Shown here: positions 2,359 to 48,459 of the stretch, in pieces
Layout of the letters: the number at the start of each line of letters is the position of its first letter
How positions within the stretch are numbered: the first letter of the stretch is position 1
Assembly: GCA_948567375.1 (NCBI GenBank)
Contig: OX419755.1
Location: forward strand, 1,493,001-1,557,000
From: Lunularia cruciata
Taxonomy: Eukaryota; Streptophyta; Marchantiopsida; Lunulariales; Lunulariaceae
Length of the DNA: 64,000 bases
Reading direction: 5' to 3'
The notes under the pieces: generated by a model
Seen by the model: only the letters and a program-made list of their open reading frames with translations
What the model was told of the DNA's origin: nothing
Database searches by the model: none
Translations under genes and position numbers: made by a program

Positions 2359-2742
2359 TATGGTACCCACATTTTTTGTTTTATTTGAAATGGAGAAGAA
2401 GAAGTGTATAGAGAAGTCGGATTGTGCTTGTATGGCCAAAGAAGGCGAAGAAAAGAGTCTTTGGGATGAAACCCGAGGTAACATGGCTTCCGGTCATAAG
2501 ACAAAGTACTTGGACTTGCTCTATTAGCATATAACCCGAAGTAAGAAGTCTTCGTATCGGGGGTGCTCAATCTAAGGCAAAGATGGTGTAACAACTTTTC
2601 TTTGGGGCAAGAAATTCAAGAAGGGACCGTTCAAAAACCGGCAGTCATACACATGAAGTACACTTGACAATGATAGGCGCATGCAAGAGGTGTGATTTCT
2701 TGGTAGAAACTTGAATGAAGAGAGATGAAGAGTGCAAAACTC

Positions 2743-2750
2743 TATAAAAA
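2743..2750 (+). promoter_or_regulatory. TATA box of LTR-C copy C1
   Basis: The sequence CTCTATAAAAA lies 385 bp inside the unit and 20 bp before the conserved ATG at 2770. The same box is at the same place in C2 and C3 and close to it in C4 and C5. This fits a U3 promoter with transcription starting near the ATG. Confidence 0.6.
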
Positions 2751-4582
2751 TTGAGCTCACGACAAAGCAATGTCGAGCAATTTTCCTTTGCCGTTGAGGA
2801 GTCATCCTGGATGAGATCATGGGAAGGGAAGTAGAGTTGAAGACGCGCTAGTGTGTAGAGGAGAATTCAAGAGAGTTAACTTGAGAGACAGTGAGGAAGC
2901 AAGAAAGATAGGAGGAGGAAAGAAGAACTCCAAATTCGTAGTGAGAAATCATGCAATTTGGAGGTGAGATGTGATCACCAGAATCAAAGTCTTGAGCCGA
3001 CTTCAGATCACATTCTTGGTGTGGAACTAGAACGTGAGTTTTCCAAGATTCATGACCAAGATAATTGAGAGTAAATGTCTCAATGGCCTTGAGGAAGAGA
3101 GGAAGAGAGGAAATCCGGCTTGCTGGACAGAGTCGGATTGGAGATTAGTACTCGGAAGAGAGGCATGCACGGAGTTGGGTGCCACGTTCTTGGGGAAGGG
3201 AGAGGTAGCCAAAGAAACCCAAGAAGTGAGGGATGCCTTCTCTTTGCAAAGGATGAAGAGTGGGTACAAAGTAAAGAGTTACAAAGATCCGGTCAAGAGA
3301 GGGATCGTGAGTGCTCTCATGGCAATCCTAAAGCCGGAGAGAATGACTTATGTGATGAAACACCAAGCGGTGTTCTTCCATAAGATGTTTGTAGGAGAAC
3401 CCATCAACTGGGCAAGGTGCTTCCATGGGAGAACAAGGCAGATGGTGTGGAATTTGCGGGATAAGTCGCCTCCACACTACATCGTGCCGTTTGTAGCACA
3501 TTTCTACCTCGGGTTGAATTTGCTCAATGCGGCAGAGTGCAATAGAATGGTGTTGCACTTTCATCTCGACTTGAGAAAGGAAGTCAACACGGAGGAGCAA
3601 CAGTATATTCTTCAGATCCAAAGCAGTGATGAGTACTACGCACAACAGGGAAGAGTGCATAGGTAGAAGTAAGTACTCTGAAGTCAAAGAAGCGGAGTCG
3701 ACAAGGAGAAGGTAAAGACATAGAGAAGATGAGACCTCGGAAGACCAGGAGAGGAAACCCGAGAAAAGGTATGGTGGTGATCGTGTCGTCGGAAGAAGAC
3801 TCGGAAAGCAAAGCCAAGTGCAAGTCTGAAGACTCAGAACATGAGGAAGAACTCGAGCTTACACTACAAAGTGGGGATACGAGTAGTGATAGCAATGAAG
3901 GTGGGGAGATGACATTGGTGCCTGCAGAAGAAGAAGAAGTTTGGGTGGAGCTCAAGGAAGAGAGTAATGCAAAGTTGGAGGACAAAGTGCCCGAGCCAAA
4001 GGATAAGAAGATTACTATTCAGAGAGGAGTTCAGTCAAGGCGCAAGGCAAAGTGTGAAGTGGGTCTGAGCAAGGCAAGGGAAGAGGAGAATGCAAGTTTG
4101 GGAAGTGAAGCGTCTATTCCGATATGACAACTGTAGAGAAGAAGGCGAGTATTAAGAGAAGAAGAGGTAAAGAAGGAGATCACTTTGCAGGTTGATGTGG
4201 TGCCCACATTTTTTGTTTTTTTTCAAAATAAAGGAGAAGAAGTGTATAAAGAAGTCGGATTGCGCCTGTTTGGCCGAAGAAGACGAAGAAAACTATCTTC
4301 GGGGTGAAACCCGAAGTAAAGTGACTTCGGGTCGTAAGGCGAAGTACTCTGAAATGCCGTGTCAGCATACAATACGAAGTAAATTGTCTTCGGCTCAGGG
4401 GGAGCTCAACCCGAGGCAAAGACAGTCTAACAACCTTTTGTTGGGGCGAGAAATTCAAGAAGGGGCCGTTTCAAAATTGGCGGCTCATACGCGCGAAGGT
4501 GGGGCGACAGTGACAGGTGCATGCCGGAGGTGTGATTTCTCGGTAGAAACTCAAAGTGACGGAAGACGAAGAAGTGCAACTC

Positions 4583-4590
4583 TATAAAAA
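4583..4590 (+). promoter_or_regulatory. TATA box of LTR-C copy C2
   Basis: TATAAAAA lies 388 bp into the unit and 20 bp before ATG 4610. If transcription starts 25-32 bp downstream, the start site falls just past the first ATG, so the ATG at 4748 (MGGGKKN) could be the real initiator. Both are in the same frame. Confidence 0.6.
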
Positions 4591-4609
4591 TCGAAACTAC
4601 ACCGACAAA

Positions 4610-7183
4610 ATGTCGAGCAATTTTCCTTCGCCGTTGAGGAGTCGTCTTGCAGGTGATCGGGGAAAGGGACATAGAGTTGGACTCGTGTTAGTGCATAAGG
4701 GAGAAGTCGAGAGAGAGAAATTGAGAGACCGAAAGAAAGTAGAAGAGATGGGAGGAGGGAAGAAGAACTCCGAATTTGTAGTGAGAAATCATGCAATTCG
4801 GAGATTAGATGTAGTAGCGAGGATCAAAGTCTTGAGCCGACTTCGGATCACCTTTCTTGCATGGAATTGGAACGTAAGTTTTCCAGGATTCATGACAGAA
4901 ATCATCGAGAGTAAATGTCTTGATGGTCCCGAGGAAGAAGGGAAGAGAGGAAATCCGGCTCGCTGGACAGAGTCGGATTGGAGACTCGTACTCGGGAAGG
5001 AGGCAAGCTCGGAGCAGGGAGCCACGTTCTTGGGGAAAGGAGAGATAGCTCAAGAAACGCAGGAGGTGAGAGAAGCCTTCTAGTCGAAGAGGACGAAGGA
5101 TGGGTATAAAGTTGAGAGTTATAAGGACCCAGTGAGGAGGGGAATTGTGAGTGCACTAATGGCCCTCCTGAAGCCAGAGAGAACTACCTATGTGATGAAA
5201 CACCAAGCGGTGTTCTTTCACAAGTTATTTGCAGGAGAACCAATAAATTGGGCAAGGTGCTTTCACGGAAGAACGAGGCAGATGGTGTGGAATCTGCGAG
5301 ATAAGTCGCCTCCACACTACATCGTACCATTTGCAGCCCACTTTTACCTCGGGTTAAATCTGCTCAATGTGGCTGAGCGTAATCGAATGGTGTCTCATTT
5401 CCATCCTGATTTGAGAAGAGAAGTCGACGCGGAGGAGGAGCAATACATTCTCCAAATCCGGAGCACAGACGATTACTACACAAAGACAGGGAAGAACGTG
5501 GAGGTCGTTGAAAGTACCCCGACGAAGAAGAGAACTCGGCAAGCAGACGCCGAAGAAAACAAGAAACCTCGGAAGATGCAGAAAAATAACCCGAGGCGAG
5601 GAATGGTGGTGATTGAGTCGGAAGATGAAGACTCAGAAGGCGGAGCCGAGCTCAAGACGGAGGACTCGAAACATGAGGAGGAACCTGAGCTGACACTGCA
5701 GAGCGGAGATACAAGCAGTGACAGTGAAGACGGTGGAGAAATGACCTCGGCACCAGCGGCTGAAGAATATGAAGAAGAAATTCAAGCCGACGTAGAAGCC
5801 GAAGACAATGTGGCGCTGGAAGACGAAGTACCGGTGCTTGAGGAGAAGAAGATTGCAGTACAGCGAGGGATTCGCTCAAGACGTAAGGCGAAGTGTGAAG
5901 CGGGACCGCGTAGAGTGAAGGAAGAGGTAGAAGGAAGCTCGGGCAGTGAGGCATCAATTCCGATACGAAGACTTCAGAGAAGAAGGCGAGTATTGGGAGA
6001 ACACGAAGAAAGAAGAGAGACTACTCCGCGGGAGGACAAAGGTATCAGTAATGGAGTAGATTACCTACAGATGGTAGTATGCCTGCTGTTGGTGAAGTTG
6101 GAAAGGAAGAAGAAGGAGATGCAGTCGACTTGTCCAGAGGTAAAGACTGTATTGCAGGTGGTATCGAGATTAGAAGAAGAAAACTCGGAGTTGAAGAAGA
6201 GTATAACCTGAGGTGAGAAGGAGAGAGAAGTACTGCAAGAGGAAGCAGTGGAGAGAAGTTGGGTAATCAAAGACCTGAAGAGAGAAGTGAGCTATTGAGA
6301 GGATCTTGCGAGGAAGAGTGACGTCGTAAGAGAGAGACAAGTAGCTGAATTTGAAATCTTGAAGCAGCAGTTTGCTGATTCAAGAGTAGAGCTCATCCAT
6401 GCTATGGCGAGGGTAGCATCGAAGGATCAAGAGCTCGATCAAGTGATGGAGAGTATGGAGGAGAAGAAGCAACTCTGGCAGCGAGAGTTGGCTACGAGAT
6501 ACGGAGAAGAAGAGAGATTACGAGACTTACTTCGTAATCAGGAAGAGAAGGTTGCACAGAAGGAGAAAGAGAAGGACGCGGTGAAGGCCGAATTCAAAGA
6601 AGAATTGGCGATGTACAGAGAGGAATGGCTTGCAGATCGGGAACGAGAAAGGAAGACAAGATTAGAGCCATTGCAGGAGATAGTCCTCAGGGTAAACGCG
6701 ATGTTAAGTACAGAGACCAGCGTTCAAATTGAAGAAGCGCGTCTGCACGAGTTGAAGCTGTTGGTGCAGGAGACGAGGCGAAGACAAGCGAAAGATACAA
6801 ATTTGAATGCCTTGTTGATTAAATTGAGAACTCGTGTAGATAGGAAGATCTTAGAAGTAGAAGACAATATCGCGATTAGATTAGACTTAGTAAGAATAGA
6901 GTTAGAAAAGCTTCGGCAGGATGTTAAAGCAAAACCCGAAGTAGATAACATCGGGATCCAAATGTCTTCGGAGTTGCCCTCAGCGACAGAAGAGAAGAGT
7001 GGGTCGAAGGATGAGGAGTTAGATAGATTACCCGCTAGTGCAATTTCAGATCAGGAAAGAGAATTGCTGGATCTGGTAGAAGATGTAGGAGTTGTGAAAC
7101 CCGAGGACAGAATAGTAGGAAGTAAGATTACTTCATGTTCGGGTTTGAAAGCCGAGGAAGAAGTAGACATCGGATCGGATTAG
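4610..7183 (+). pseudogene. LTR-C long ORF, best copy: W-rich domain plus coiled coil
   Basis: One frame of about 857 codons runs from MSS at 4610 to the family stop at 7181-7183 and is broken only by in-frame stops: TAG 5081, TGA 6209 and TGA 6296. Both TGAs are CGA in copy C3, which fits methyl-cytosine deamination. Visible layout: a basic N-terminus; a Trp-rich domain at residues ~80-270 with TFLAWNWNVSF, WTESDWRLVLGKEA, YVMKHQAVFFHK, GEPINWARCFHGR and HFYLGLNLLN; a Glu/Asp/Ser-rich stretch at ~330-420 with LTLQSGDTSSDS; a basic patch IPIRRLQRRRRV near 450, which might be a nuclear signal; a long charged coiled coil at ~480-780; and a conserved C-terminus. No catalytic motif, zinc finger or membrane segment is seen. 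I do not recognise the family. A Gag-like or chromatin-binding structural role is a guess. Confidence 0.75.
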
Positions 7184-7392
7184 TAACTAATTTGAGATTT
7201 GAAGGGGCAGATATGAAGAGGTGCATTGTCATTTCGGATCTGCAGGTTAGAACAGTAGTTGTAGAATGGTATAGTTGTTAGAACTGTTGATTGCTTCACT
7301 ATTTAAGAGTGGCATTCGTAGTATTATGTTGTTCAATGCTCATTATTTCTGAGAATAGATAAAGCGAAGTGCTGTGAAGCAGTGCTCGTCGC

Positions 7393-7599
7393 TTGAGCTT
7401 GATTCCGAGTATCAATTTTGCAATTGTGTTGGTGAGTGTTTGGAGAAATTTGAAGTGCAAGTCAGAGTGCTTGTTGGATGTTGGATTCCACAGCCTTGAT
7501 CTTCATTCTGTGTGTTTGATCTTGAGTGAAGTGCAATCGAAGCAATGCCTTGACAGATCTGAGAGGAATTGTAGTGTTGGTAGTATTCTGCGTTTATGA
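7393..7599 (+). other. 68-codon ORF in LTR-C tail (C2)
   Basis: This is the same 68-codon ORF as at 590-796, about 210 bp after the long ORF. It starts MSLIPSINFAIV, carries a Cys-rich middle (CKSECLLDVGF), and ends NCSVGSILRL. It has the same length in C0, C1, C2 and C5, and differs at only a few residues among C0-C2. Whether it is translated is unknown. Confidence 0.25.
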
Positions 7600-8175
7600 G
7601 TACAGTGCAAAGTTGATGTGAAGCAATTTCTATCGAGGAAGTTGTGCCTTCAGTGGAGGGGTAGAACACAATTCTGAGGCGAAGTCGTTTTGCAGTGAAG
7701 TGCCATTTTTGGGAGAGCCTGAATCATCACAATCAAGATTGTTTGGAAAGATTTGATGGATTTGTGATTATGGAGTGTTAATTTGTGACAAGACTGCGAG
7801 TTAGTGCTTGTTACTCTCTTCTGGGTGTGGTTTCTACCTGAGAGACTAAAGAAGAACTCAAGAAGAACTAAAATTGTTACTTTGCTTCGTATTTGACCAA
7901 TTCTGACTCGTATCTCTGCAAGAACGAACTTTACTTATCCAATTACCGCAAAAGTGATATTTGCCGGGTTGTCACAGTTGAAGTAGTTGCAAGTGATGGA
8001 GTGGAGTACTTGCAAGAAGTTATGTGTCCTTTGTTGGCAAAGCTAGAGCACACAAAGAGGGAGATGCAGTCGAAGTGTCCGAAGGTGAAGATTGTGTTGT
8101 AGGTATTAGCAAGACTGGAAGAAGAGAACTCGGAGTTGAAGAAGAGTATAATCCAAGGTGAGGAGTGCAGAGTGA

Positions 8176-8215
8176 GACTCTGCACTACTGCAAGTGGATG
8201 CAGTAGTGCAGAGTC
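8176..8215 (+). repeat. Perfect 17-bp hairpin inside C1 ORF
   Basis: The arms at 8176-8192 and 8199-8215 are perfect inverted copies with a 6-nt loop. The matching place in C3 (near 44110-44160) has no such palindrome and is shorter. The hairpin was therefore created in C1, most simply by templated correction of a weak quasi-palindrome. Confidence 0.7.
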
Positions 8216-9234
8216 AAGTGATTGAGAACTTGAAGAGAGAAGCAAGGTATCAAGAGGAACTTGTGAAGTAGAGTGACATAGCGAGGGAAAGACAAGTAGC
8301 TGAGTATGAAATCTTGAAGCAGCAGTTTGCTGATTCAAGACTAGAAATTATCCATGCTATGGCAAGAGTAGCAGAGAAGGAACAAGATCTTGATAGAGTC
8401 ATGGAGAGTGTAGAAGAGAAGAAGCAACTGTGGCAATGGGAGTTGACAGTGAGATATAGGGAAGAAGAGAGATTACAAGAGTTACTTTGTAATCAAGAAG
8501 AGAAGGAAGATGAGATTGGAGCCATTGAAGGAGATCATAATCAGGATGAATGCGATGCTAAGTATAGAGGCTAGTATGCATATTAAAGAGATGAGGCTGC
8601 ACAAGTTGAAGTTGTTGGTGTAGGAGACGAGGAGGAGACATGCAAAGGATACAGATTTGAACGCATTGTTGATTAGTCTCAAAACTCGTGTAGATAGGAA
8701 GATATTAGAAGTGGGAGATAATATCACGATTAGATTAGATTTGGTAAAGTTGGAGATAGATAAACATTGGAAAGATGTTAGAGCAAAACCCAAAGTAGAT
8801 GATGTCTTTAGAGTTACCATTGGAGACGTTAGAGAAGAGTGGGTCAGAAGATAAGGAGTTAGATAGATTACCCACTAGTGAAATGTCAGATCAGGAAAGA
8901 GAACTATTAGATTTGGTAGAAGATGTAGGAATTATGAAACCCGAGGACAGAATATTAGGAAGTAAAGTTACTTCAGGATTGGGTTTGAAAGCCGAGGAAG
9001 AAGTAGACATCGGATAGGATTAGAAACAGATTTGAGATTTGAAGAGGCATATATGAAGAGGTGCATTGTCATTTTGGATCTGTAGGTTTGTAGAGTCATA
9101 AGGAAGAGGTACATTAGGAAGATAACTATCATTTGCTTCACTATTTAAGAGTGGCATTTGTAGGGAATTGTTGTTTAGTGCTCATTATTTCTAAGAATAG
9201 ATAAAGAAAAGTGTTGTGAAGTAGTGCTCGTCGC

Positions 9235-9441
9235 TTGAGCTTGATTCCGAGTATCAACTTTGCAATTGTGTTTATGAGTGTGTGGAGAAATTCAAAGTGC
9301 AAGTCAGAGTGCTTGTTGGATGTTGGATTCTGCAGCCTTGATCTTCATTCTATGTGTTTGATCCTGAGTGAAGTGCAATCAAAGCAATGCCTTAATAGAT
9401 ATGAGAGGAATTGTAGTGTTGGTAGTATTTTGCATTTGTGA
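9235..9441 (+). other. 68-codon ORF in LTR-C tail (C1)
   Basis: This is the C1 copy of the tail ORF at 590-796 and 7393-7599, with the same start, length and end and a few substitutions. Coding status is unproven. Confidence 0.22.
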
Positions 9442-9824
9442 GTGCAGTGCAAAGTTGATATGAAGCAATTTCAATTGAGGAAGTTGTGCCTTCAATGGAG
9501 GGGTGGAACACAATTCTAAGGTGAAGTCATTTTGTAGTGAAGTGCTATTTTTGGGAGAGCCTGAATCATCACAATCAAGATTGTTTGGAAAGAGTTGAAG
9601 AAGTTGTGATTAAGGAGTGTGAATTTGTGACAAGACTTAGAATCAGTGCTTGTTACTCTCTTTTGGGTGTGGTTTCTACCTAAGAGATTAAAGACGCAAT
9701 CAAGAAGAACTACATGTTACTGTTTGACTTTGTATTTGGACATTTCTAACTCGTATCTCTGTGGGAACAAACTTTACTTACCTGATTACTGCAAAAGTGA
9801 TATTTGTTGGGTTGTCACATTACC

Positions 9825-13770: not shown

Positions 13771-14161
13771 ATATGTGTATGTGACAACCCGGAAAATATC
13801 ACTTTTGCGGTAATCAGGTAAGTAAAGTTTGTTCCCACAGAGATACGAGTCAGAATTGGTCAAATACAAAGTCAAATAGTAACATGTAGTTCTTCTTAAT
13901 TTCATCTTTAATCTCTCAGGTAGCAACTACACCCAAAAGAGAGTTACAAGCTCACAATCTTGACAACTTGTCATGAATTCAAACACCCATAATCACAACA
14001 TAACAAATTCTGTCAAAAAAAATCTTGATTGTGATGATTCAGATTCTCCCAAAGATGACACTTCCCTACAAAACAACTTTGCCTCAAAATTGTGTTCCAC
14101 TCCTCCATTAAAGGCACAAATTCCTTGATCAAAATTGCTTCACATCAACTTTGCACTGCAC

Positions 14162-14368
14162 TCACAAATGCAAAATACTACCAACACTACAATTCCTCTC
14201 AGATTTTTCAAGGCATTGCTTTGATTGCACTTCACTTAGGATCAAACACACAGAATGAAGCTCAAGGTGGCAGAATCCAACATCCAACAAGCACACTGAC
14301 TTGCAGTTTGAAATTCTCCACACACTCAAAAACACACACAAAAAGTTGATACTCGGAATTAAGCTCAA
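14162..14368 (-). other. 68-codon ORF in LTR-C tail (C5)
   Basis: The tail ORF in a diverged unit has the same length, start MSLIPSINF and end SVGSILHL, with about ten replacements relative to C2. It is the most informative copy for a selection test. Confidence 0.28.
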
Positions 14369-14575
14369 ATGACAAGCACTAAAATCAGCACTTCACTTTA
14401 TTTATCTTCAAAAATATGAATACTGAACAACATTTTACTACAAATGCCTCCCTTAAATAGTAAAGCAATCGATAGTTACCAATAACTATACCGTTCTACA
14501 ACAACTTTTCTACCTGCAGATCCAAAATGACAATGCACCTCTTCATATTTGCCTCTTCAAATCTCAAAACTGTTT

Positions 14576-17121
14576 CTACTCTAATTCAATGTCAATCTCT
14601 TCATCGGCTTCCAAACCTGACAATCCTCCTATTACTTCTCCTTCTTTGGGTATATTTGATTCTACTAATTCCTTCACTATTTCTACTACTTCTTCATTAG
14701 GAACTACAATTGAGATCATGGGTAACTCTTCTATCTCTTTATCTCTTGACCCACTCTTCTCTAAAGTGTCAAAAGATAACTCCAAAGACACCTAAATTCC
14801 TACTTCTGCACCATTGGACTTTTTCTCCTTTGTCACACTACTCCTATTTTCTCTAACTTTAAATTCACTCAATCTAATTTGAGACTTACATTGTCTCCTA
14901 CTTCTAGCATCTTTCTATCTACTTGCTCCCTCAATCGGATTAATAAAGTATTCATATCAACATCTTTAGCTCTCCTCTTCCGAGTTTCTTGCACAAGCAA
15001 CTTTAACTCATGTAGTCTTGCTTCTTCTAATCTTCCTTCAGCCTCTGTGCTCAGCATCACTCTCAATTTTCCCACAACTTCTCCTACTGATTCCGACTCA
15101 TACCCTCAAGATTGCTCTGCCTTTAACTCTTCTTGGTACATCTTCAACTCGTCTTTGTTCTCAGCAGCGAGCATCTTTTTCTCCTCCGCATACTAAGAAC
15201 TTTGTAACTCAGCACTTTGTACCAACTCTCTCAATCTTTCTTCTTCTCGATGTCTGATCGCCAACTCTCTCTGCCATGCTTGATCCTTCCCGGCTGCACT
15301 CTTCCTCAAGCTTTCTAAATCCTGCTCCATCACTGCTGCCATCGCTTTTACATGAATACTCTCGATGTGCACATCATTGACCTCCTCTTTCATCTTGGTC
15401 AGCAACATTGTCTGCCCCTTCAACTCTTCGGCTTGACTCTGCATTTCTTTCCCTCTTGCCTCAAAACTCTCTTGCAACTTCTCAAAAGTCTTAGTCTTCA
15501 AGACTATATTCACCCAAAGATCTCAACTTCCTCGTCTCTTTGGGTTACACGTTCCTCCAAGCCCTTTACTTCAGCCAACAGATACTTCACCACCTGCAAC
15601 TCATTTGTCACCTTCATGCCATTGTTTTGGATTACCTTCTGGCATTCTTTTAGCAGCCCCAATAATAGAGTTCTAACATGTGATAAATATTGTATCCCTC
15701 TGAAGTTCTCTTTGTCTTCGGCCCCATCTTTGTTCTTCACCTCTTTCGTCGGCTCCTTCTTCCAAAGTCTTGATCTTTGTATCTTCAGCGATACTGCTTC
15801 CAAAGTTCCTTCTTCCTTACATGCTGAACTTGGCCCCGCAAGGTACTTCTTCTAATGCTCAACCCCCTTATCTTCCATGACCAGGGCTAGATAGTGATTT
15901 GCATTTCCTAATATACTGTCAATCATTGCATGAAAAGCTTCATCCTCTTTTGCTTCAGCCAACTGCTAAACTTTGTCTTACCCTCACTCTCACTTCCGGA
16001 TTCCCCACTTTGTAATGTGAGTTTGGCTTCCTTTGAGTCTTCTCCTCTAGATTTGGTCTCCCCTTTAGACTCAATTTCCGAAGGTTCTTCTTTCACCACC
16101 TTCTTACCCCGCTGAACAAGTCTTTGGGTCTTTCTTTGGGTCTTTCTTTGTGCTGGAAGCAACTCTACTTCTTTGGGTTTATTCTACTTCTTTGTCTTTG
16201 GGCTTATGACTTCTTCCATCTCCCATTGTCTTGTTCTCAAGAAGTGATCATCATTGGCTTGTAGGTGTGCCATGTATTGTTGTTCTTCTTCATCTGCTTC
16301 CCGTCTCAAATTAGGATGAAAATGTGACACCATCTGACGCCTCTCCACCGCTGTCAACAAATTCAACCTGAAGTAGAAATGTGTTGCAAACAACATGAAA
16401 TAATATGGAGGTGAAGCTGTCCTTCAATTGACAACCATTTGCCTTCTTCACTGGTGAAAACACTTTGCCCAATTCACTTTCACACCTACAAACATCTGGT
16501 GGAAGAATACCACCTGTTGCATGTTCACGTATGTCGTTCTTTATGGTTTGAACATTGCCATTATTGTCCCCATGATGCTTCATTTAATTGGGTCTCAATA
16601 GGACTCCACCTTGTAACCATTCGTTGTATGTGGAGCAAAAAACAAATTGCATATTTGTGTAGTCTCCTCTACAGCATCACAGTTCTGATAGAAGGTGAAC
16701 CCCATCGGTTCTCCTACTTCCTTCCCCAACACTAACCTCCAATCCGACTCAGTCCATCAAGCCGGATTTCCTCTCTTCCCTTCAACTTCAAGACCCTCCG
16801 CACAATTATTGGCAGCTATCTCTACCATGACTCCTGGGAAACTAAAATTCTAGTTCCACGCTAAGAAAGTAATATGAAGTCTATTCAAGACCTCAATCTT
16901 TGCTACAACATCCAACCTCCAAATTGCAAAACTTCTTACTACAAGGGCATTCTTGACCTTCTTTGCCATGATCTGCTCTCTTGTTCTTTGGCACTGGAAG
17001 ACTATTCCCTCTCCTAAACTCTAACCCCTTCTAGATTTTGGAAAATTTCACGCTCAATCAGCTTCTTGACACACATTACTATAGGATGACTACTCAAAGG
17101 AACTAGAAATCTACTTGACAT
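14576..17121 (-). pseudogene. LTR-C long ORF, copy C5
   Basis: The frame runs from ATG at 17121-17119 (MSSRF) to the stop at 14578-14576, broken by several stops and shifts. The Trp-rich domain keeps VFFHQMF, NWAKCFHQ, LFATHFYFRLNLL and MVSHFHPNLRREAD. The acidic part has LTLQSGESGSES. The coiled coil is open in parts (15193-15513, 15510-15803, 14869-15075). Compared with C2 and C3 the replacements are mostly conservative (L/M, K/R, D/E), as expected if the source genes diverged under selection before each copy died. Confidence 0.7.
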
Positions 17122-17148
17122 ATTCAACTTTCCCCTGCACAATCACAA

Positions 17149-17155
17149 TTTTATA
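17149..17155 (-). promoter_or_regulatory. TATA box of LTR-C copy C5
   Basis: TATAAAA on the minus strand lies 27 bp upstream of the conserved ATG, at nearly the same distance from the unit's 5' end as in the other units. Confidence 0.5.
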
Positions 17156-18135
17156 TTACCCCAAATTGTAGTCAATCTTCAGTCCATTTCAAAATTGACT
17201 CCCTCTTCTTCTACGTGTTGATGTCTTGTCACTATCAAGACATGCTTCTTCTGCCTCCGCCGTTTCTTGAAGTGTACTTTCTTGCCATGTAGAAAGGTTG
17301 TTAGACAGTCTTTGTATCGGCCTTTGCTTCCCGATCCAAAGACAATGATCTTTGGACTTGTCTCTTTGTACTCCCCTTTTGAGTATTTCCGTTCTCCAAC
17401 CCAAAGTTGACTTCTTTGGATTCCCTCCGAAGACACTTCCGTCCATTCTTTCCTTCATAATTCGGCTTCCTTGCTTACTTCTTCTCCAAGCGCTAACAAA
17501 ACAGAAAAAACAAAAAATGTGGACACCATAGTGTAATAATTTGTGGACAAGGGAACTCTCTAAGAGAGATACAAGAGAGAAAACACAAGTTTTGCATGAC
17601 ACATGTCACATGCCCCAAAGAACAACCTTCTCTTTATTATATAGCAAAGAGGACCCCTCAAAGGAAGCTCCACCCTTGGATCAGATACATGGATTGGTGA
17701 CTTGTCAGCAAGCTCCATCCTTGGATTAGTCGTTTGGATGAGAGACATGTCAATCCTTGTCCTATCTAGTTGGTTAAAAGGAATCTTTAAGGGATTTTCC
17801 TCTAGGAAGCTCAAAATTGCATGGGTGAGGTACTATTGGAAAGCTCTCGATGAGACAAATAACCACGAGGGGTGGTAGAAAGAAAGACTTTTTGCCTTGA
17901 GAGGGGATCATTCTATTTTTTAGGCCTAATTCATCAGTTTAGGCCTCCAAAATTGGCTCTAAAGTTTTCAGGTTATTTTTGGCTTCTGCACTATTAGTAG
18001 AAGTACTCTTTTGGTGACACCTTTGTTTGATCTTCCTAGCCCATTGTACATAACATCCTTCTAGATGTTACCAAGCCAATTTCTGTCTAGCTACTTGTAT
18101 TACAATATGGCGGGTACATGTCTTTGAGAATACCT

Positions 18136-21640: not shown

Positions 21641-21943
21641 TTTCCACAAGCTACAATACCCTTTTATGTCAAAAAAGATTTCACAAATTAGAAAGTTCAA
21701 AGGAATTTGAGGTATTTGAAAAATTTCATGGATACAAATACTTAATTCTATTATGAACCTCCAATCTTTCACATATTAAGCCTAATTTCCTAAATCTTTA
21801 CATGTTATTCCCCATTTATAATTATCTATAAATATTTGTAAGGCATTGCCTTCTTTCTCCCAATGTGAAGAAGAATCTCTTGAGTATATTGGGTGCAAAG
21901 ATACTCCATAATAGCCTAAAGTCCAGATCATTAAGAGTCTCAA

Positions 21944-22613
21944 TTGATATCTACATTACGACACACTATTTGAAACCTCACTCTAATACATACAAGAAAT
22001 TCATGTATTCCTCAATAAATTTCAAGCATGATTAAAATACATACCATGAATTGATATCTACATTACCACACACTATTTGAAGCCCCACTCTAATACATAC
22101 AAGAAATTCATGTATTCCTCAATAAATTTCAAAGCATGATTAAAATACATACCATGAATTGATATCTACATTACCACACACTATTTGAAGCCCCACTCTA
22201 ATACTTACAAGAAATGCATGTATTCCTCAATAAATTTCAAAGCATGATTAAAATACATACCATGAATTGATATCTACATTACCACACACTATTTGAAGCC
22301 CCACTCTAATACTTACAAGAAATGCATGTATTCCTCAATAAATTTCAAAGCATGATTAAAATACATACCATGAATTGATATCTACATTACTACACACTAT
22401 TTGAGACACCACTCTAATACTTACAAGAAATTCATGTATTCCTCAATAATTTCAAAGCATGATTAAAATACATACCATACTATTGAAAAATACTTATATT
22501 TGAAACTCTTTTATCAACACTTATAATTTGAACCCCTACTCTCATATATATAGGAAATGCATGTACTCCTCAATAAATTTCAAGGCAAGATTTAAATACA
22601 TACCATATCATGG
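21944..22613. repeat. Tandem repeat, 108-bp period
   Basis: Units begin TTGATATCTACATTA at 21944, 22051, 22159, 22267 and 22375, so the period is 107-108 bp. The middle units are nearly identical. The array then decays into a partial unit at about 22480-22613. Each unit holds ACACACTATTTGAAGCCCC and CATGTATTCCTCAATAAA. It is a small local satellite, not a CRISPR-type array, because there are no separate spacers. Confidence 0.9.
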
Positions 22614-23996: not shown

Positions 23997-24177
23997 TGTT
24001 ATTTTAAAAGACCAAGGGGGAGAAATAAGAGAATGGAAGATCAAAATGAAAAATCATATTGGGACTCTTAAAGAAGAGAAACTCCAAATGCCTAGCATGA
24101 GCTTGGGCTTTGGTATTTATAAGAAATATATGAGGCTCATGAGAAGCTTCTCAATAAGCTTTCTAAAAGTCACTTTT

Positions 24178-24930
24178 TGTAATACGAAAAGCTAGCCATA
24201 TGATTTAGATGTGAAATTTGGTTGGTAACATCTGGAATAATGTTATACATGATGGTCAAAATAGATTAGATAGAAGTATCACCAAAAAATTACTTCTACT
24301 AATAGAGCAGAAACCAAAATAGACTTGAAAACCTTAGAACCAATAACTAGACATATGACTTAAAGGTGAGAATTGGTTTGATAACATCTGGAAAGATGTT
24401 ACACATGATAGACTAAACAGATCAAAAAGAGGTATCACCAAAAGTGGACTTCTACCAATAGAGTAGGAACCAAAATATGCCTGAAATCTTTGAAGGCAAT
24501 TTCAAAGGCCTAAACGGATGAATTAGGCCTTGGAAATGTGATAATCCACATGCCAAATGGTGGAGAGGCTAGCCTTCTCTCTCCCTTACTATGTCTCATT
24601 GAGTGCTTTCCAATGGTACCTCACCCACATGATTCTGAGATTCCTATAGGAATATTCCCTAAAAGATTCCCTTTGGTCAAAGCTTGTTTGACCAACCAGA
24701 TAGGACTAGGACCAACATGTCACCCATCCAAGTAAGTAATCCAAGGGTGGAGCTTGCTGGCATGTCACCTATCTGTGTGCCTAATCCTATGGTGGAGCTT
24801 ATTTGGAGGAGATCCTCTTTGTCTATATAAGAAAGAGAAGGTGCTCCTTTGGGGCATTAGAGTTTGAGTGTGAAAGTGTGTGTTTCTCATGGTGTGTTCC
24901 CTTAATGTCTCCTATCCTCAAAGTATTACA
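24178..24930 (+). repeat. G1 5' LTR (LTR-A)
   Basis: This LTR is 753 bp, begins TGTAATACGAAAAGC and ends AAAGTATTACA. It contains TCTATATAAGAAAG (24819-24834), a likely TATA box, and ends just before the primer-binding site. It differs from the second and third LTRs by several percent. Confidence 0.88.
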
Positions 24931-24931
24931 A

Positions 24932-24943
24932 TGGTATCAGAGC
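24932..24943 (+). other. Primer-binding site, initiator-Met tRNA
   Basis: TGGTATCAGAGC starts 2 bp after the LTR end and is the standard complement of the 3' end of plant initiator-Met tRNA used by many Ty3/gypsy and Ty1/copia elements. Confidence 0.85.
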
Positions 24944-25068
24944 AGGTGTTGTCATCCAAGAGAGCAGATCACCCTTCTTGGAAAAACATGGGCTATTGAG
25001 ATCAAGTAATTTTGAGGGGAGATATTCTGGTGGAATTCGTAGATTAGGAGTGCTAGAGGGAGGATGGA

Positions 25069-25470
25069 ATGGAGGCTCCAGGAGGACAATATCTAGCACC
25101 TTGGTTTCCATTCTTGAATCCATTCCACATCAAGATTATGTCCATTCAACATGAGCAAGTGAGAGTGTATCTGGTTTTTCACTTTGGAGCAAAGTTCATG
25201 GATATAGTGATGAATTTGCCAAACCCAATGATTTTGTCTATAGTGATTTAAGAGCAAGAGTGGGATTTGAGAATCTACATTATGTTGTGATGGATTTGAA
25301 CGTCCCAAATCGTTTCCCTTTTAACACTCAAGTAGAAATTAGTTATGTAGTGAGACCAAAAGTGATGTATAGAGATTTCACGGTCAGGAATTTTGGTGAG
25401 GAATATTATCAATGAGTGGTAGGTTCTGAGGTCCCAATGGTAGTTCCAGTAGTTTGTGCACCCTCTTGAG
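25069..25470 (+). pseudogene. G1 pre-gag conserved segment
   Basis: Between the primer site and gag is a translatable segment with ENLHYVVMDLNVPNRFPF, QVEISYVVRPKVMYRDF and NFGEEYYQ, ending at a stop near 25414. The same residues are readable on the minus strand of G2 at about 51630-51850, so it is a conserved coding part of LTR-A elements, either the N-terminal part of Gag or a small ORF before it. It resembles no enzyme I know. Frameshifts and stops separate it from gag here. Confidence 0.5.
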
Positions 25471-25526
25471 TGATCATATTAACTCTCTATTGAAGTAGAC
25501 AATAGCAATTGATTAATATAGGAACC

Positions 25527-26475
25527 ATGGATCGGCAATTGTAGGAGTTGGTGCAAGGAATGCAAGGGATGTTGAACAAATTTTGAGAGATTAAGATGAC
25601 CATGGAAGCATTACAAAGTCAAGTGCAGGCCCTCAAGAATGATCAAGCAATGCAAGAAGAAAAGTAGTCTCAAAACCCAATACCTATGATTGAAGTACTT
25701 GGAGAGGCACCTATTCATACAAACCTTGTCAATGATGAAGCCACATTACTACTCTAGATGAAGAAGACCTACAACATCAAGCCTTACAAGGGGTAGCATA
25801 CGATGGGAGTAGTGGGAAATTGGATCTTGAGAATGAATCAATATTTACGATTGTTCTTAATAGAGATCACCGAGCATGCTACAGGCATGTTTGCATATGG
25901 CATGGATCCGACTATGGGAATTGAAACAAAAGAATAGTGTTCAAGAGTATGTGGAGGCATTTTTGGATCTACAAGTTGCAATAACCAACATGAGTCTAGT
26001 AGAGACTCTAGACAATTCAAACAAGGGTTGAAGGAGCGGATTTGCCAAGAAGTCATGGTACAAAATCCTCACATAATATTTGAAGCCATTGCTTGTGCGC
26101 AAAGAATAGTAGGAGCATTTGGTGGAGGTGAAGGAGTAGTTCTTTCTCAACATTATTGGGCAAAATTACCACCCATGGGTGGACCAGTACCGATGGAACT
26201 GGGCAACCTTTGGTTTTGAGACTAAGGAGCATGACTGCTTCAAGGAGAATGGGGACAGGTAGAAGAACGGAGAGATGGAGTCCCATGAGGAGAAGGAACT
26301 CAAGGAGAACAACACCGTTGTTACAATTGTGGTGGTATTGGGCATATATCTACCAACTGTGATGCTCATCTCTTCAGAGGCCCTTGGCCTTCAAACAAGA
26401 AATCTTTGAACAACATGGAGAGATGCATTGAAGAGGAGGAGGTGGAAATCACTTTGGAAAGCAAAGATTACCAAT
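25527..26475 (+). pseudogene. G1 gag remnant with zinc knuckle
   Basis: The gag frame starts near ATG 25527 (MDRQLQ) and has multiple stops. It includes a coiled-coil-like QGMQGML...QVQALKNDQAMQEE part. A central capsid-like region is readable as IKPYKG, WILRMNQYLRLF and LKERICQEVMVQNPHIIFEA. The CCHC zinc knuckle, C-YN-C-GGIG-H-ISTN-C, lies at about 26314-26360 with all four metal ligands intact. It would encode the RNA-packaging structural protein. Confidence 0.7.
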
Positions 26476-26559
26476 AAATGTACCTTGCGGCCTTATTGGC
26501 TCAATAAGGAAGCAAAAAAGTGAGAGAAGGAAGAAGACAAGCGCACAAAGGTACCAAAA

Positions 26560-26850
26560 AGCAACCTCTGAATTGATTATAGTGAATAGAGTCCTAGAAG
26601 TCAATCAAGTAAGAGTATTAATAGATCTGGGAGCAATAGAGAATTTCTTGTCTCACTTTATTGTAATAAGATTGAGAATGGATCTAGAGAGACATGAGAG
26701 TGAAGAAGTAGAGTTACCTAATAGGCAAACAAAGAGGATTGAATCATTACCTAGATGGGTAACACTCTCTGTAGGAGAATAGTAGGAAGCAATTGAGTGG
26801 CAAGTGATACAATTAGCTCGTTAGGATGCAATCTTAGGCATACCATGGAT
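26560..26850 (+). pseudogene. G1 aspartic protease remnant
   Basis: The retropepsin-type motif region is at about 26610-26650 and reads LIDLGAIENFLSH. The family normally has L-I-D-S-G-A-T in this place, so the Asp is kept but the Ser and Thr are replaced. The flank HESEEVELPNRQTKRIE is typical of the flap region of plant gypsy proteases. It is part of the pol polyprotein, now broken by a stop at 26782. Confidence 0.7.
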
Positions 26851-27760
26851 GGAGCATTACAACCATATGGTAGATTGGAAGAAGAAAGTAGTGAGAACCC
26901 ACCAATGGTTTATCATTGGGGTTAAAGAAAAATCAAACAAGCAAGAATTGCCTCTCTATGTCATTGGGACAATAGCTATCGGTAAGACCGATAGATGTTT
27001 CATGGGTCTAATAAGAGAAGTCCAGAGTGCACAACTTAATGGACAAATTCTTGATAAATTGAAAGAGGTGATAAATGAGTTTCAAGATGTCTTTCTTGAT
27101 GATCTACCCTCAAGATTACCACCAAAAAGGAGAGTAGATCATAAAATTGAGACACTCCTAGAGAAGACACCTCCTTGTAAGGCACTATATTGCCTATCAC
27201 CTCATGAGTTGGAAGAGTGCAAGAATCAAATTGAGGATATGTTGCAGAAAGGTTTATCCAACCCAATGTATCACCATATGGGGCTCCGGTCTTTTTTTTG
27301 AAGAAGAAGGATGGTACAATGTGCATGTGCATTGACTATCAGGGTTTCAATCAACAAACAATGAAGAGAAACTACCCCTTACCTTGCATGGATGATCTAT
27401 TTGATCAACTCAATGGAGTAAGACACTTCATGAAACTAGATTTGCAGAGCGGATACAATCAAATCCAAATTGCACAAGAGGATGTGTACAAAACAACCTT
27501 TCATACCACGTATGGCCACTTTGAGTATCTCATGATGCCTTTTGGTATCACCTACGCACCTACCACTTTCATTAGTCTAATGAATGACATATTTTGTCCA
27601 TATTTGGATAAATTGTTTATCATCTTCTTGGACAACACCTTAGTATATAGTAGCACAATGATGGAACACAAACAACATCTATGCGAAGTCCTCTAGATTC
27701 CAAGATAGAATTGATTGTATGCCAAAATCTCAAAGTGCAAGTTTGGCAAGTTTGAAGTAG
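26849..27760 (+). pseudogene. G1 reverse transcriptase
   Basis: There are two long open pieces, 26849-27301 and 27298-27696, with a frame change at a T run near 27292. Motifs in order: FQDVFLDDLPSRLPP, the linker before RT; KKDGTMCMCIDYQGFN; LDLQSGYNQIQI; YGHFEYLMMPFGI; and FIIFLDNTLVYS. The catalytic box normally reads LDD, and here the second Asp is Asn, so the enzyme would be inactive even without the frameshift. The order and spacing match Ty3/gypsy RT. Confidence 0.85.
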
Positions 27761-28420
27761 ACTACTTAGGGCATAAAGTAAGTGCAGAGGGTATTCAAGT
27801 ATTGATAGATAAAATAGAGATCATTCAAAAATAGAGTGCACCAGAAGATCATACTCAACTCAAGAGATTCTTGGGGTTGACACGATACTATCATCAATTT
27901 GTCAAGGACTTCTCTAAGGTTGCACAACCTTTAACAAAACTACTTGGCAAGGGGAAGAAGTGGACGTGCGGAACCACACAAGAGTTGGTCTTTCAAGAGT
28001 TGAAAGCCACCTTGCTACATGCACAAATCTTGAAGTGGTATGACCCAAAATGTTAAATCAAGTTGGCTACAGATGCATCAAGCGTAGCAATAGGAGCAGT
28101 CCTACAACAAGAGTGGCATGATAGATGACATCCAATTGCATATTTCTCTCAAAAGTTGTTACCGGTAGAGCACAAATACCACACCACAAAACAAGAAGAG
28201 CTGGCCATCATCCCTACAGCCAAGCATTGGAAGCACTATTTGGGCAAGAAGGTATTTGTAGTAGAGACAGACCACAAACCTCTAGTCTACCTTGAGACGC
28301 AGAAGGATCTATCTCGTCACCAGAGTGGCAACAACACTTCAACATGACAATCACCTACATGGAAGGTACAAAGCAACTTGCAGATGCATTCACCCACATG
28401 CCAATGGGAAACATTTTGGT
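27761..28420 (+). pseudogene. G1 RNase H
   Basis: This continues from RT. LKRFLGLTRYYHQFVKDFSK is the connection region, then LATDASSVAIGAVLQQ carries the first catalytic Asp, then KQEELAII (catalytic Glu), then VETDHKPLVYLE (Asp). Stops at about 28056 and 28127 and a frameshift near 28330 break it. The usual final motif for gypsy RNase H is present as ALPVEH/EHKYHTT-type residues. Confidence 0.8.
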
Positions 28421-28499
28421 GGCAAAGGTTAATCTGGCCAAAGATTTGGGTTGCTACAAAACTGATCCATAGATTGTAGAAGCACAATCATCCAAAGGC

Positions 28500-29790
28500 A
28501 TCACCACCCAAGGACTCACCTTTTGTGATTGCAGATTATGGATCCCAAATGTCCCAAAATTACGTACCACCATTCTAGTAGAATGTCATGATTTGGCCAT
28601 TGGAGGTCATGTCAGAGTGAACAAAGCCTTGGATGTCGTCCAACGCCATTACTATTGGCCCAAGATGAGCAACAACATGATGACTACATGCACAACTACC
28701 TACTTTGTCAATAGAACAAAGCTTCTAATCAAGCTCATGCAGGGCTCCTTCAACCTCTCCCCACTCCGACCCAATGTTGGGAATAGATGATCTTTTTTGT
28801 GAATTACCCAAGACCACCTTAGGGTTTGACTCCATTGTGGTCTTTGTGGACCAGCTCAGCAAAATGATTCATATAGACCCTACCACCAAGGATGTGATTG
28901 CTCCACAACTAGCTCAATTATACTTAGATGCAATCTTCTCTCACCATGGCTTGTCTCAAGTACTCATCACCAATAGAGGCACTCAATTCACTAGTTTGTT
29001 TTGGCAAACACTCTTTGGTTTCTTCAAAACCAAGTTGGCCATGTCCACAACTTACTACACACAAATAGATGGAAAAATAGATGGAAAAATAGAGCGGGCT
29101 AATCGCACTATAGAAGACATGTTATGTGACTTCATCTTAGCAGAGCAAGAGCGGCGGGACACCCTACTCCCATTGGTGGAATTTGCTTACAAAAATTCAT
29201 TAAATGCATCCAAATACAAATAGATGGAAAAATAGAGTGGGCTAATTGCACTATAGAAGACATGTTACGCGGCTTCACCTTAGAAGAGCAAGAGTGGCGG
29301 GACACCCTACTCCCATTGGTAGAATTTGCTTACAAAAATTCATTAAATGCATCCACCCAGGTCACTCTATTCTTCCTCATGTATGGTGAACATCCCTTCA
29401 CACCTAGCTTGATGAAGATCCGTCTAGTGGCTACCAAGGTCAATGTAGTCAACACATTTGTTTCTAGAATCCAACAAGGTGTGGAGAGAGCTAAGCACAG
29501 ATTACAAATTTGCAAAATCAACAGAAGTAGTATGCTGATGCACACTGTAGGCACATGGAGTTCAATGGTGGGGATCATGTGTGGCTATCGAGAACCAACC
29601 TCACATTAGTTGGACCTCATAAGCTTAGACCTCATTTTATTGGTCCTTTCTTGATTCTTTGTCAGGTCAGCATTGTGGCCTATCACCTCAATCTACCACC
29701 ACACATGAAGATCCATCTAGTGTTCCATGTTTCCCTACTATGCAAATATGCTCCCTGATCAGGCCAGTGTCATTCCACACAAGACATTTG
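28500..29790 (+). pseudogene. G1 integrase, with internal duplication
   Basis: The N-terminal zinc region (HDLAIGGH...) is at about 28590-28720. The Cys pair is damaged, reading TTCTTTYFVN. The core follows: IVVFVDQLSKMIHI (first Asp region), then VLITNRGTQFTS, where the second catalytic Asp is Asn, then IERANRTIEDML (Glu). A 143-bp tandem duplication at about 29092-29355 repeats the Glu region and shifts the frame. The C-terminal part reads DHVWLSRTNLTL and MKIHLVFHVSLL to about 29758. Confidence 0.8.
29092..29355 (+). repeat. 143-bp tandem duplication in G1 integrase
   Basis: GAGCGGGCTAATCGCAC at 29092 recurs as GAGTGGGCTAATTGCAC at 29235. The copies differ by several substitutions, so the duplication is not recent. 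The length is not a multiple of three. A shorter AGATGGAAAAAT duplication precedes it at 29066-29091. Confidence 0.85.
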
Positions 29791-30008
29791 ACCTTGTCCG
29801 ACACTCATTGATGGCACAAAGAGATATGAAGTGGAGTGTATTCTCCAAAAATACATACGTGGTGTTTGCCATCCACGGGTAGACTATCTAGTCCAGTGGA
29901 AAGGTTACCTCTATGAAGCAACCTAGGAGTCCACTAGCAATTTGACACATGCACCAGTGTTGGTGCAAGTGTTTGAGCAGTAGTTGCACAACAAGGACAT
30001 TGCGTCTT
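29790..30008 (+). pseudogene. G1 chromodomain
   Basis: The segment reads YEVECILQKYIRG, then VDYLVQWKGYLYEAT, then NLTHAPVLVQVFEQ at about 29820-29980. This is the chromodomain pattern (Y.VE.IL, YLVKWKGY, W.P..NL) that ends integrase in chromoviruses, where it directs insertion to modified chromatin. The Trp after EAT is a stop (TAG) here. Confidence 0.75.
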
Positions 30009-30021
30009 AAAAGGAGAGAGG
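30009..30021 (+). other. G1 polypurine tract
   Basis: AAAAGGAGAGAGG lies 2 bp upstream of the second LTR. A matching tract (31604-31616) lies before the third LTR. Confidence 0.8.
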
Positions 30022-30023
30022 TT

Positions 30024-30766
30024 TGTAATACCAAAAGCTAGCCATATGATGTAGATTTGAAATTTGGTTTGGTAACATCTAGAATGATGTTACACATGAT
30101 GGTCAAAATAGATCAGATATAAGTATCACCAAAAGAGTACTTCTACTAATAGGGCAAAAACCAAAATAGACTTGAAAACCTTAGAACCAATAGTTAGACA
30201 TATGACTTAAAGGTGAGAATTGGTTTGGTAACATATGGAAGGATGTTACACATGATGGAATAAATAGATCAGAAAGAGGTATTACCAAAAGGGGACTTCT
30301 ACTAATAAAGCAGGAACCAAAATATGCATGAAATCTTTGAAGGCAATTTTGAAAGCCTAAATGGATGAATCAGGCCTTGAAAATGTATAGATCCCCCCCA
30401 CCCAACAAAGGAATGGCTATCCTTCCCTCCCCGTTTCTTTTTCTTGTTGAGAGCTTTCCAATGGTGCCTCACCCACGTGATTTTGAGATTCCTACAAGAA
30501 GATTCCCTCCAATCAAATCTTGTTTGACCAACCAGATAGGACTAGGACCGACATGTCACCCATCTAAGTGAGTAATCCAATGGTGGAGCTTGCTGATATG
30601 TCACCTATCTGTGTGCCTAATCCTATGGTGGAGCTTCCTTGGAGGAGATACTCTTTGTCTATATAATAAAGAGAAGGTGCTCCTTTGGAGCATCGGAGTT
30701 TGAGTGTGAAAGTGTGTGTTTCTTGTGGTATGTTCCCTTCATGTCTCCTATCCTCAGAGTATTACA
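30024..30766 (+). repeat. G1 middle LTR (LTR-A)
   Basis: This LTR is 743 bp, begins TGTAATACCAAAAGC and ends AGAGTATTACA. It serves both as 3' LTR of the first unit and 5' LTR of the second. It is followed by TAGTATCAGAGC (30768-30779), the primer site with one change. Confidence 0.88.
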
Positions 30767-31618
30767 ATAGTATCAGAGCAGGCATTTTCATCCAAGAGAG
30801 CGAATCACCCCTCTTGGAAGAACATGGGCTACTGAGATGTCATCCAAGAGAGCGGATCACCCCTCTTGGGAGAACATGGGCTATTGAGATTGAGTAAGTT
30901 TGAGGAGAGACATTCTGGTGTAATTGGTAGATTAGGAGTGCTAGATGGAGGATGGAATGGAGGCTCCGAGAGGACAATATCTAACACCTTGCTTTCCATT
31001 CTTGAATCCATTCTACATCAAGGTCACAATGGCTACCAAAGTCAATGTAGTCAACACATTTGTTTCTAGAATCCAACAAGGTGAGGAGAATGCCAAGCAC
31101 CCCTTACAGATTGCAAAAAATTGATAGTGATGCATAGTGTAAGCACATGGAGTTCAATATTGGAGATTAGGTGTGGCTATCTACAACCAACCTCACATTA
31201 GTTGGACCTCATTAGCTCAGACCTCATTTTATTGGGCCTTTCTTGATTCTTCATCAAGTCAGCACTGTGGCCTATCACCTCAAGCTACTACCACACATGA
31301 AGATCCATCTAGTGTTCCATGTTTCCCTACTATGCAAACATGCTCCCCGGTCAGGACAGTGTCATTCCACACTAGACATTTGACCTTATCTCACACTCAT
31401 TGATGGCACAAAGGAATAGGAAGCTGAGTGAATTGTCCAAAAAAGTATGCATGGTACTTGCCATCCTAATGTGGACTATCTAGTCCAGTGGAAAGGTTAC
31501 CCCCTTGATGAAGCAACTTGGGAGCCTGCTACCAATTTGACACATGCATCGGTGTTGGTGCAAGCATTTGAGCACTAGTTGCACAACAAGGACATTGCAT
31601 ATTAAAAGGAGGGAGGTT
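30767..31618 (+). pseudogene. Second G1 internal region, deleted from leader to integrase
   Basis: It starts with the primer site and leader as in 24931-25120. Near 31022-31030 it jumps to sequence equivalent to about 29425 (integrase C-terminus), followed by the chromodomain (VDYLVQWKGYPLDEATWEP-type residues near 31470-31540) and a polypurine tract. About 4.3 kb is missing. The chromodomain here is less damaged than in the first unit and keeps the Trp. This may be a mobilised deletion derivative or a product of the recombination that built the array. Confidence 0.75.
30788..30891 (+). repeat. 52-bp tandem duplication in G1 leader
   Basis: TCATCCAAGAGAGCG at 30788 recurs at 30840. Each unit contains CACCCCTCTTGG and GAACATGGGCT. 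The first internal region (24950-25000) has a single copy. Confidence 0.85.
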
Positions 31619-32359
31619 TGTAATACCAAAAGCTAGCCATATGATCAAGATGTGAAATTTGGTTTAGTAACATATGGAATGATGGTCAAAATAGATCAGA
31701 TAGAAGTATCACCAAAAGAGTACTTCTACTAATAGGGTAGAAACCAAAATAGACTTGAAAACCTTAGAATCAATAGTTAGACATATGACTTAAAGGTGAA
31801 AATTGGTTTGGTAATATCTGGAAGGATGTTACACATGATGGACTTAATAGATCAAAAAGAGATATCACCAAAAAGGGACTTCTACTAATAGAGTATGAAC
31901 CAAAATATGCATAAAATCTTTGAAGGCAACTTTAGAGGCCTAAACGGATGAATTAGGCCTTGAAAATGTGCAAAATTCCCCAACCCAATGAAGGGGAGGC
32001 TAGCCTTTCTCCCCTTGCTTTGTCTCATTGAGAGCTTTCCAACGGTACCTCACCCATGTGATTCTAAGATTCCTATAGGAAGATTCCCTAAAAGATTCCC
32101 TTTGGTCAAAGTTTGTTGGACCAACCAAATAGGACTAGGATGGACATGTCACCCATCCAAATAAGTAATCCAAGGGTGGAACTTTCTGACATGTCATCTA
32201 TCTGTGTGCCTAATCCTATGGTGGAGCTTCCTTGGAGGAGATCTTTTTTGTCTATATAATAAAGAGAAGGTGCTCCTTTGGGGCATCGGAGTTTGAGTGT
32301 GAAAGTGTGTGTTTCTTGTGGTGTGTTCCCTTCATGTCTCCTATCCTCGGAGTATTCTA
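31619..32359 (+). repeat. G1 third LTR (LTR-A)
   Basis: This LTR is 741 bp, begins TGTAATACCAAAAGC and ends GAGTATTCTA in place of ATTACA. It is followed by CCTTC and then resumed G4 LTR sequence. Confidence 0.82.
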
Positions 32360-40327: not shown

Positions 40328-40334
40328 TATAAAA
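40328..40334 (+). promoter_or_regulatory. TATA box of LTR-C copy C4
   Basis: GACTATAAAATT lies 435 bp into the unit and 27 bp before ATG 40362. It is the same arrangement as in C2, retained in a diverged subfamily. Confidence 0.5.
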
Positions 40335-42472: not shown

Positions 42473-42480
42473 TATAAAAA
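42473..42480 (+). promoter_or_regulatory. TATA box of LTR-C copy C3
   Basis: CTCTATAAAAATT lies 383 bp into the unit and 20 bp before ATG 42500. Confidence 0.6.
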
Positions 42481-42499
42481 TTCAACTCGCAACGATGAA

Positions 42500-48450: not shown

Positions 48451-48459
48451 ACAATCTAT

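Follow-up and report, generated by a model that had tools for sequence, protein, structure and literature searches.

Solo long terminal repeats holding copies of an 858-codon gene: a Ty3/gypsy retrotransposon of Lunularia cruciata

The DNA analysed here, a stretch of 64,000 nucleotides of Lunularia cruciata contig OX419755.1 (positions 1,493,001 to 1,557,000), is called the window below. It contains six solo long terminal repeats (LTRs) of a Ty3/gypsy retrotransposon, named Ub to Ug, whose LTR holds a gene of 858 codons. As the initial annotation of the window had reported, all six units have ends of the TG...CA type and are flanked by perfect 5-bp target-site duplications (TSDs); each is a single LTR devoid of internal region. 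Five bases agree between two random places of the window at a rate of 0.0017. Unit Uc (4196-7976, forward strand) is 3781 bp long, with TGTG...CACA ends and the duplication GTTGA at 4191-4195 and 7977-7981. It is inserted in Ub (2359-9819, forward, TSD TTACC), which it splits in two, and a second nested pair is formed by Ug (42090-45869, forward, TSD AGGGC, 83.5% identical to Uc) inside Uf (39893-47384, forward, TSD GTGAT). The remaining two, Ud (13780-17530, TSD GTGTA) and Ue (35801-37672, TSD CAAGT), are on the reverse strand. The giant size given for these units does not extend to Ue, which is a solo LTR reduced to 1872 bp by an internal deletion. The gene, which we place most likely in U3 (see below), is of a second type in Ud, of a third type in Uf, and of another type in Ue. 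At the left edge of the window, Ua (1-1174, forward) is the 3' part of an LTR whose 5' end lies beyond the window, and is 88.6% identical to Uc. About 68 bp are absent from Uf (39893-41700) near query position 840 and present in its genomic relatives. Just past the window, at L049:5806-9606, another solo LTR is found, 87.7% identical to Uc and flanked by the duplication ATAGG.

The 566-Mb assembly (74 contigs) was searched for further copies, and 34 of 12,935 first-look candidates were scored, so that all genomic copy counts are lower bounds. Besides Uc, at least 34 near-full-length LTR copies are present, 82-96% identical among the matches listed. Perfect 5-bp duplications surround 16 of these 34 copies, which makes them solo LTRs, with 4 of 5 bases matching in one more; a primer site follows 5 of them, a polypurine tract precedes 10, and 2 are truncated. 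Copies 92-96% identical to Uc flank gag-pol at other places of the genome. Three such two-LTR elements, with LTRs of the C type, were examined. In each of them a single outer duplication is common to both ends (AGTGC, GATTT and GTAGT), and the two LTRs, 2.59, 2.96 and 2.28% apart respectively, are mutual nearest neighbours. The polypurine tract GAGGGAGGGGGTA lies immediately ahead of TGTGGTGCCCACA at the 3' LTR in all three elements. The primer site TGGCACCGCTGCCGGGGA, which presumably pairs with tRNA-Asp, is found 7 nt past the 5' LTR end ...TTGTCACA in two of them; in the third, whose 5' LTR is missing its 3' end, none is visible. The reading of the units as solo LTRs, put forward in the initial annotation, is thereby borne out, both by the existence of elements with two units around gag-pol and by the signals found at the unit borders.

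The C7 element measures 13,724 bp with an internal region of 6,166 bp, and the C12 element 13,730 bp with an internal region of 6,171 bp. The internal region of the C7 element codes for gag, two zinc knuckles (CCHC), reverse transcriptase (RT), RNase H and integrase, that is, for gag followed by RT, RNase H and integrase in the Ty3/gypsy order. No Pfam match to a protease domain was obtained in this region, and the open reading frame (ORF) lists of the C7 element contain no further large sense frame from integrase to the polypurine tract. The layout is a 3.78-kb LTR, a primer site, a 6.2-kb gag-pol region, a polypurine tract and a second 3.78-kb LTR.

The absence of pol noted in the initial annotation holds for the six units, but a seventh locus (52941-62119, forward strand) had been overlooked, in which two related copies of the unit bracket pol and a polypurine tract stands ahead of the second copy. 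It is a decayed two-LTR element. Its truncated 5' LTR, Uh5 (52941-54525), opens with TGTGGTACCCACA and holds the start of the LTR gene. The remnant internal region (54526-58650) gave Pfam matches, in order, to RT (RVT_1, 1.9e-5), RNase H (RT_RNaseH_2, 6.5e-20), the integrase zinc domain (Integrase_H2C2, 6.9e-10) and, weakly, the integrase core (rve, 0.01), so that the RT, RNase H and integrase order of the C7 element is also met with inside the window. The polypurine tract (58651-58664) has its equivalent position in the three genomic elements, and precedes the 3' LTR, Uh3 (58667-62119), which carries the LTR gene and is interrupted at 62120 by another LTR element. Uh3 picks up again outside the window, at L049:3801, and fades after about 150 bases; its 3' end and its TSD were looked for past that position and not found. 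Among window units, Uh5 and Uh3 are mutual closest relatives (77.7% alignment identity, 100/100 support). Over 169 aligned codons they differ at 37/30/37 first, second and third positions, with a ratio of nonsynonymous to synonymous divergence (dN/dS) of 0.60 (interval 0.39-1.0), compared to 0.52 and 0.82 in the shifted frames. Such differences, without frame-specific constraint, are as expected of two LTRs diverging after one insertion. Within the decayed internal region, a 242-bp tandem duplication, 93% identical, occupies 56997-57529.

In Uc, the LTR gene runs from the ATG at 4610 to 7183 (forward strand). A frame of about 860 codons had been annotated in each full unit; the frame is indeed present, but no window copy was read fully open. 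That of Uc has three in-frame stops (5081, 6209 and 6296), and stops and/or frameshifts also break the frame in Ub, Ud, Uf and Ug and at the seventh locus. All 34 genomic copies have the ATG, and in 31 of them the frame is 2574 nt long; the sole uninterrupted copy among the 34 belongs to a solo LTR with a perfect duplication. Comparison between copies gave a signal of purifying selection: Uc and Ug differ at 109/86/256 sites by codon position, with a dN/dS of 0.16 (0.13-0.20), against 0.93 and 1.55 in the shifted frames. Between more distant gene types dN/dS was 0.17-0.29 where the synonymous divergence (dS) could be computed, several pairs being saturated, and for the short pieces in Ua and Ue it was 0.24-0.31 and 0.56-0.63, with wide intervals. 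The picture is different within elements. When the three same-element LTR pairs were pooled (pooled codon-position counts exclude L048 and Ug), differences were distributed 62/60/71, which does not depart from evenness (p = 0.59) and does depart from the Uc-Ug distribution (122/97/270 in that run; p = 5e-5). Selection between elements, together with even differences within pairs, means that the gene is selected during replication of the element and not after an LTR has landed. We conclude that the LTR gene is real, with a dN/dS of about 0.2 between elements and neutral decay once inserted.

Gene types differ far more than the LTR segments downstream of them. The R-U5 sections are 82-95% identical among all pairs of Ua to Ug, and 67-71% identical to that of the decayed Uh3, whereas ORF sections across gene types are 43-67% identical (39-67% with Uh3 included). 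The Ud gene, section by section, is 43-67% like the other types, and in Ue identity is 85-95% for the 3' module but drops to about 40-60% over the gene. The two parts of the LTR yield conflicting trees, as the 3' module of Uf groups with Ub (95/96) within the C-type set while its U3 part is placed far outside. Elements with different gene types have related internal regions: sampled stretches are 83-93% identical between Uf-type and C-type elements and 74-86% between Ud-type and C-type elements, with an identical polypurine tract in both comparisons. In the Uf-type pair of C10, whose second LTR is rearranged, the tract is present and the internal region is 83-88% identical, with one 90-bp stretch at 93%. 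Of two Ud-type pairs on C12, the one at 6.3 Mb has both primer site and polypurine tract, and the one at 25.9 Mb has no polypurine tract ahead of its second copy. At least three U3-gene types thus sit on related gag-pol regions.

Synonymous sites were compared between the C7 element (C-type) and Uf-type copies. Over 579 codons of RNase H-integrase, dS between C7 and C10 was 0.39, and for the U3 gene it was 2.5 and 3.0 between C7 and two Uf-type copies; a fragmentary match in L052 (126 codons, dS 0.82) was left out. As the gene values are saturated, and as pol was compared between C7 and C10 but the gene between C7 or Uc and other Uf-type copies, it is uncertain how large the ratio between gene and pol is. 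The trend is alike in the Uh element, with a dS of 1.0-1.2 for pol and 2.9 for the gene. Since the gene outpaces pol several times at synonymous sites, it looks exchangeable as a cassette, and U3 genes were apparently swapped between elements with a common gag-pol and R-U5. Alternatively, no exchange may have taken place, the gene simply having a higher rate of evolution than the other parts of its element. The low gene dN/dS in all types, which makes no type clearly foreign, would fit with this, and so would the imprecision of saturated gene values and a possible slowing of R-U5 by constraint. Given the contrast between gene and pol at synonymous sites and the discordant placement of the two parts of Uf, we find this alternative possible but doubtful.

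The position of the gene within the LTR was judged from promoter- and poly(A)-like signals, counted in the window units and in 34 copies (33 genomic copies and Uc, without L048). A TATA-like box, TATAAAAA, lies at 4583-4590 (forward strand) and is present in 32 of the 34 copies. A TATA box had been annotated in each full unit; among the 7 window units covering this region, 5 have a TATAAAA-type box, and its role as promoter of the gene is ambiguous, because a box just 27 nt ahead of the ATG may not be the core promoter of that gene. After the gene come TATTTAA (7300-7306, forward), the proposed promoter of the genomic RNA, and GATAAA (7358-7363, forward), the proposed poly(A) signal in R. Written as TA[TC]TTAA, the first motif occurs in 33 of the 34 copies (exact TATTTAA in 29) and in 7 of the 8 window units; the second, written as RATAAA, is present in all 34 copies and all 8 window units. 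The two follow the gene about 55 nt apart in 7 of the 8 window units. Promoter and poly(A) signal usually come in this order around R, by which the gene would fill U3, and on these motifs a U3 position, as for sag of mouse mammary tumour virus (MMTV), is the most likely. Were the upstream TATAAAAA box the main promoter, the gene would instead lie in R-U5, where it would precede gag-pol as the first frame on the genomic RNA. The frequency of this box in the copies and window units speaks for such an arrangement. It would however require a poly(A) site far downstream, hence an R of some 2.7 kb, and would leave aside the pair of signals that follows the gene. We therefore hold it to be unlikely.

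The protein encoded by the uninterrupted copy, 858 amino acids long, had no match among Pfam families (E up to 1), PDB chains (0.01) or PHROGs (0.01), in line with the initial annotation, in which it matched no recognised family. PMD, Transposase_28, Athila ORF-1 and Transposase_32 were without Pfam match in the 858-aa protein (E up to 1) or in the window pieces, and none of the TRP28-type families matched it in Pfam. A suspected likeness of its N-terminus to Transposase_32 received no support from Pfam. Homologues were not found in a set of 5.8 billion sequences, the plant share of which is uncertain, nor were relatives confirmed in viral and bacterial contigs. Conservation between gene types is highest in the N-terminal part. 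Basic clusters mark an otherwise acidic middle, and the C-terminal half is highly charged. When a 485-aa piece was read in 11 overlapping segments, 2 were positive for heptad periodicity, so that a coiled coil is not established. By its anatomy and by analogy with known elements, the product would be an accessory protein, perhaps nuclear, that serves the element. In plant elements, sense ORFs near the 3' end are frequently termed env-like (PMC7264820), which brings to mind a different role for the product, as an envelope-like protein (cell-to-cell movement) or one derived from the host (captured host gene); neither Pfam nor PDB returned a match, no separate search for host homologues outside the family having been made, and we regard this reading as improbable. 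That the units are complete mobile elements without LTRs, for example a DNA transposon making 5-bp duplications, is practically untenable: the six window units, which are single, end in short TGTG/CACA termini and lack a second repeat, would suit it, but for C-type units it is refuted by the three two-LTR elements, in which the unit borders are precisely where primer site and polypurine tract lie, and the outer TSDs are shared.

The best explanation, and in our opinion a probable one, is that the units derive, as solo LTRs, from a Ty3/gypsy retrotransposon of about 13.7 kb with an 858-codon gene in its LTR, most likely in U3. The genomic RNA would start at the TATTTAA box past the gene and end near the RATAAA signal of the 3' LTR. 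With such a start and end, the gene would be the last frame of the RNA, and every round of reverse transcription would place a copy of it in both LTRs. The gene could be translated from its own mRNA started in U3, or from a subgenomic RNA, and its product would be a nuclear accessory protein aiding replication or expression of the element, as proposed for gene23 of Grande. Recombination between LTRs would leave solo LTRs that retain the gene, and different types of U3 gene would be exchanged among elements sharing gag-pol and R-U5.

Several points weigh against this explanation. The TATAAAAA box is too close to the ATG for an ordinary leader, short A+T-rich motifs are weak evidence on their own, and the synonymous divergence of the gene is, as said, saturated. 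Stops or a frameshift break the gene in 33 of the 34 genomic copies, which leaves unsupported as written the earlier claim that solo LTRs can each still express a protein. Singleton variants are uneven over codon positions (194/125/190, p = 1e-4), and strict neutral decay predicts otherwise; some of these variants may predate insertion. Finally, AlphaFold run on a 10-row alignment returned a predicted confidence (pLDDT) of 40, from which a function of the protein gains no support.

The element itself is an ordinary Ty3/gypsy retrotransposon; what is unusual is the place of the gene, the consequence for solo LTRs, and the apparent exchange. The comparisons with known systems that follow are based on passages of the cited papers. 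In MMTV, the LTR has two promoters, one of which can drive the U3 gene sag/naf (PMC9412291). The likeness to the present gene would lie in a frame within U3, a position suggested here by the succession of promoter- and poly(A)-like motifs; the difference is that MMTV is a vertebrate betaretrovirus, whereas a plant-like gene of 858 codons is found here in a Ty3/gypsy element. No sequence relation to MMTV Sag was detected, the protein being without Pfam or PDB match. Conserved extra genes of plant Ty3/gypsy elements are known from Grande (gene23), RIRE2 and Retand, and for gene23 a nuclear protein, expressed under a promoter of its own, was reported (PMC7264820, PMC11963269). According to the same passages, however, these extra ORFs sit between pol and the 3' LTR and are mostly antisense, and Retand LTRs measure 315-1194 bp compared to 3.78 kb here. 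Athila and other OTA elements may be compared with the present one as non-chromovirus Ty3/gypsy elements with a sense 3' extra ORF and LTRs of up to about 5 kb (PMC6317226, PMC11728184); they differ in Athila ORF-1 and Transposase_32, without match in our element. LTR retrotransposons of bdelloid rotifers also combine extra ORFs with many solo LTRs, but their LTRs are 159-551 bp long and the extra ORFs are not placed inside them in the passages available (PMC5408684). More generally, the passages on plant elements place accessory ORFs in the internal region, between the LTRs (PMC7264820, PMC6317226, PMC11963269, PMC11728184), and no plant element with a large gene inside its LTR turned up among the listed results of full-text searches in an open-access library.

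A selected gene in U3 would redefine the solo LTR, which would be a gene copy and more than a mere scar. The family also offers a test bed for the retention of accessory genes, as one genome allows comparison of the paired copies of an element, of solo copies and of several gene types on related gag-pol regions. A bolder proposal, which we think rather improbable, is that the LTR is a complete exchangeable gene cassette and that solo LTRs continue to supply the protein in trans, to the benefit or the detriment of the family. With gene, promoter and poly(A) site all within the LTR, each recombination between LTRs would leave a solo LTR able to make the protein. The usual route of element removal would then multiply helper or regulator genes, and the cassettes would diverge and swap among elements with a common gag-pol in the manner of a specificity or immunity module.

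The window contains other repeats as well. A tandem array with a period of about 108 bp lies at 21942-22607. Another Ty3/gypsy family is present at 24176-32356, where LTR-like blocks occur three times, and as a related reverse copy at 47423-52734; RT was matched in it at E 2.3e-19, and integrase weakly. The LTR element inserted into Uh3 is a different one. It extends from 62120 to 64000 and on to L049:3800, between flanks TAATG and CAATG that are one base apart, and its LTR is followed, at about 62469, by TGGTATCAGAGC, which we take to resemble a primer site.

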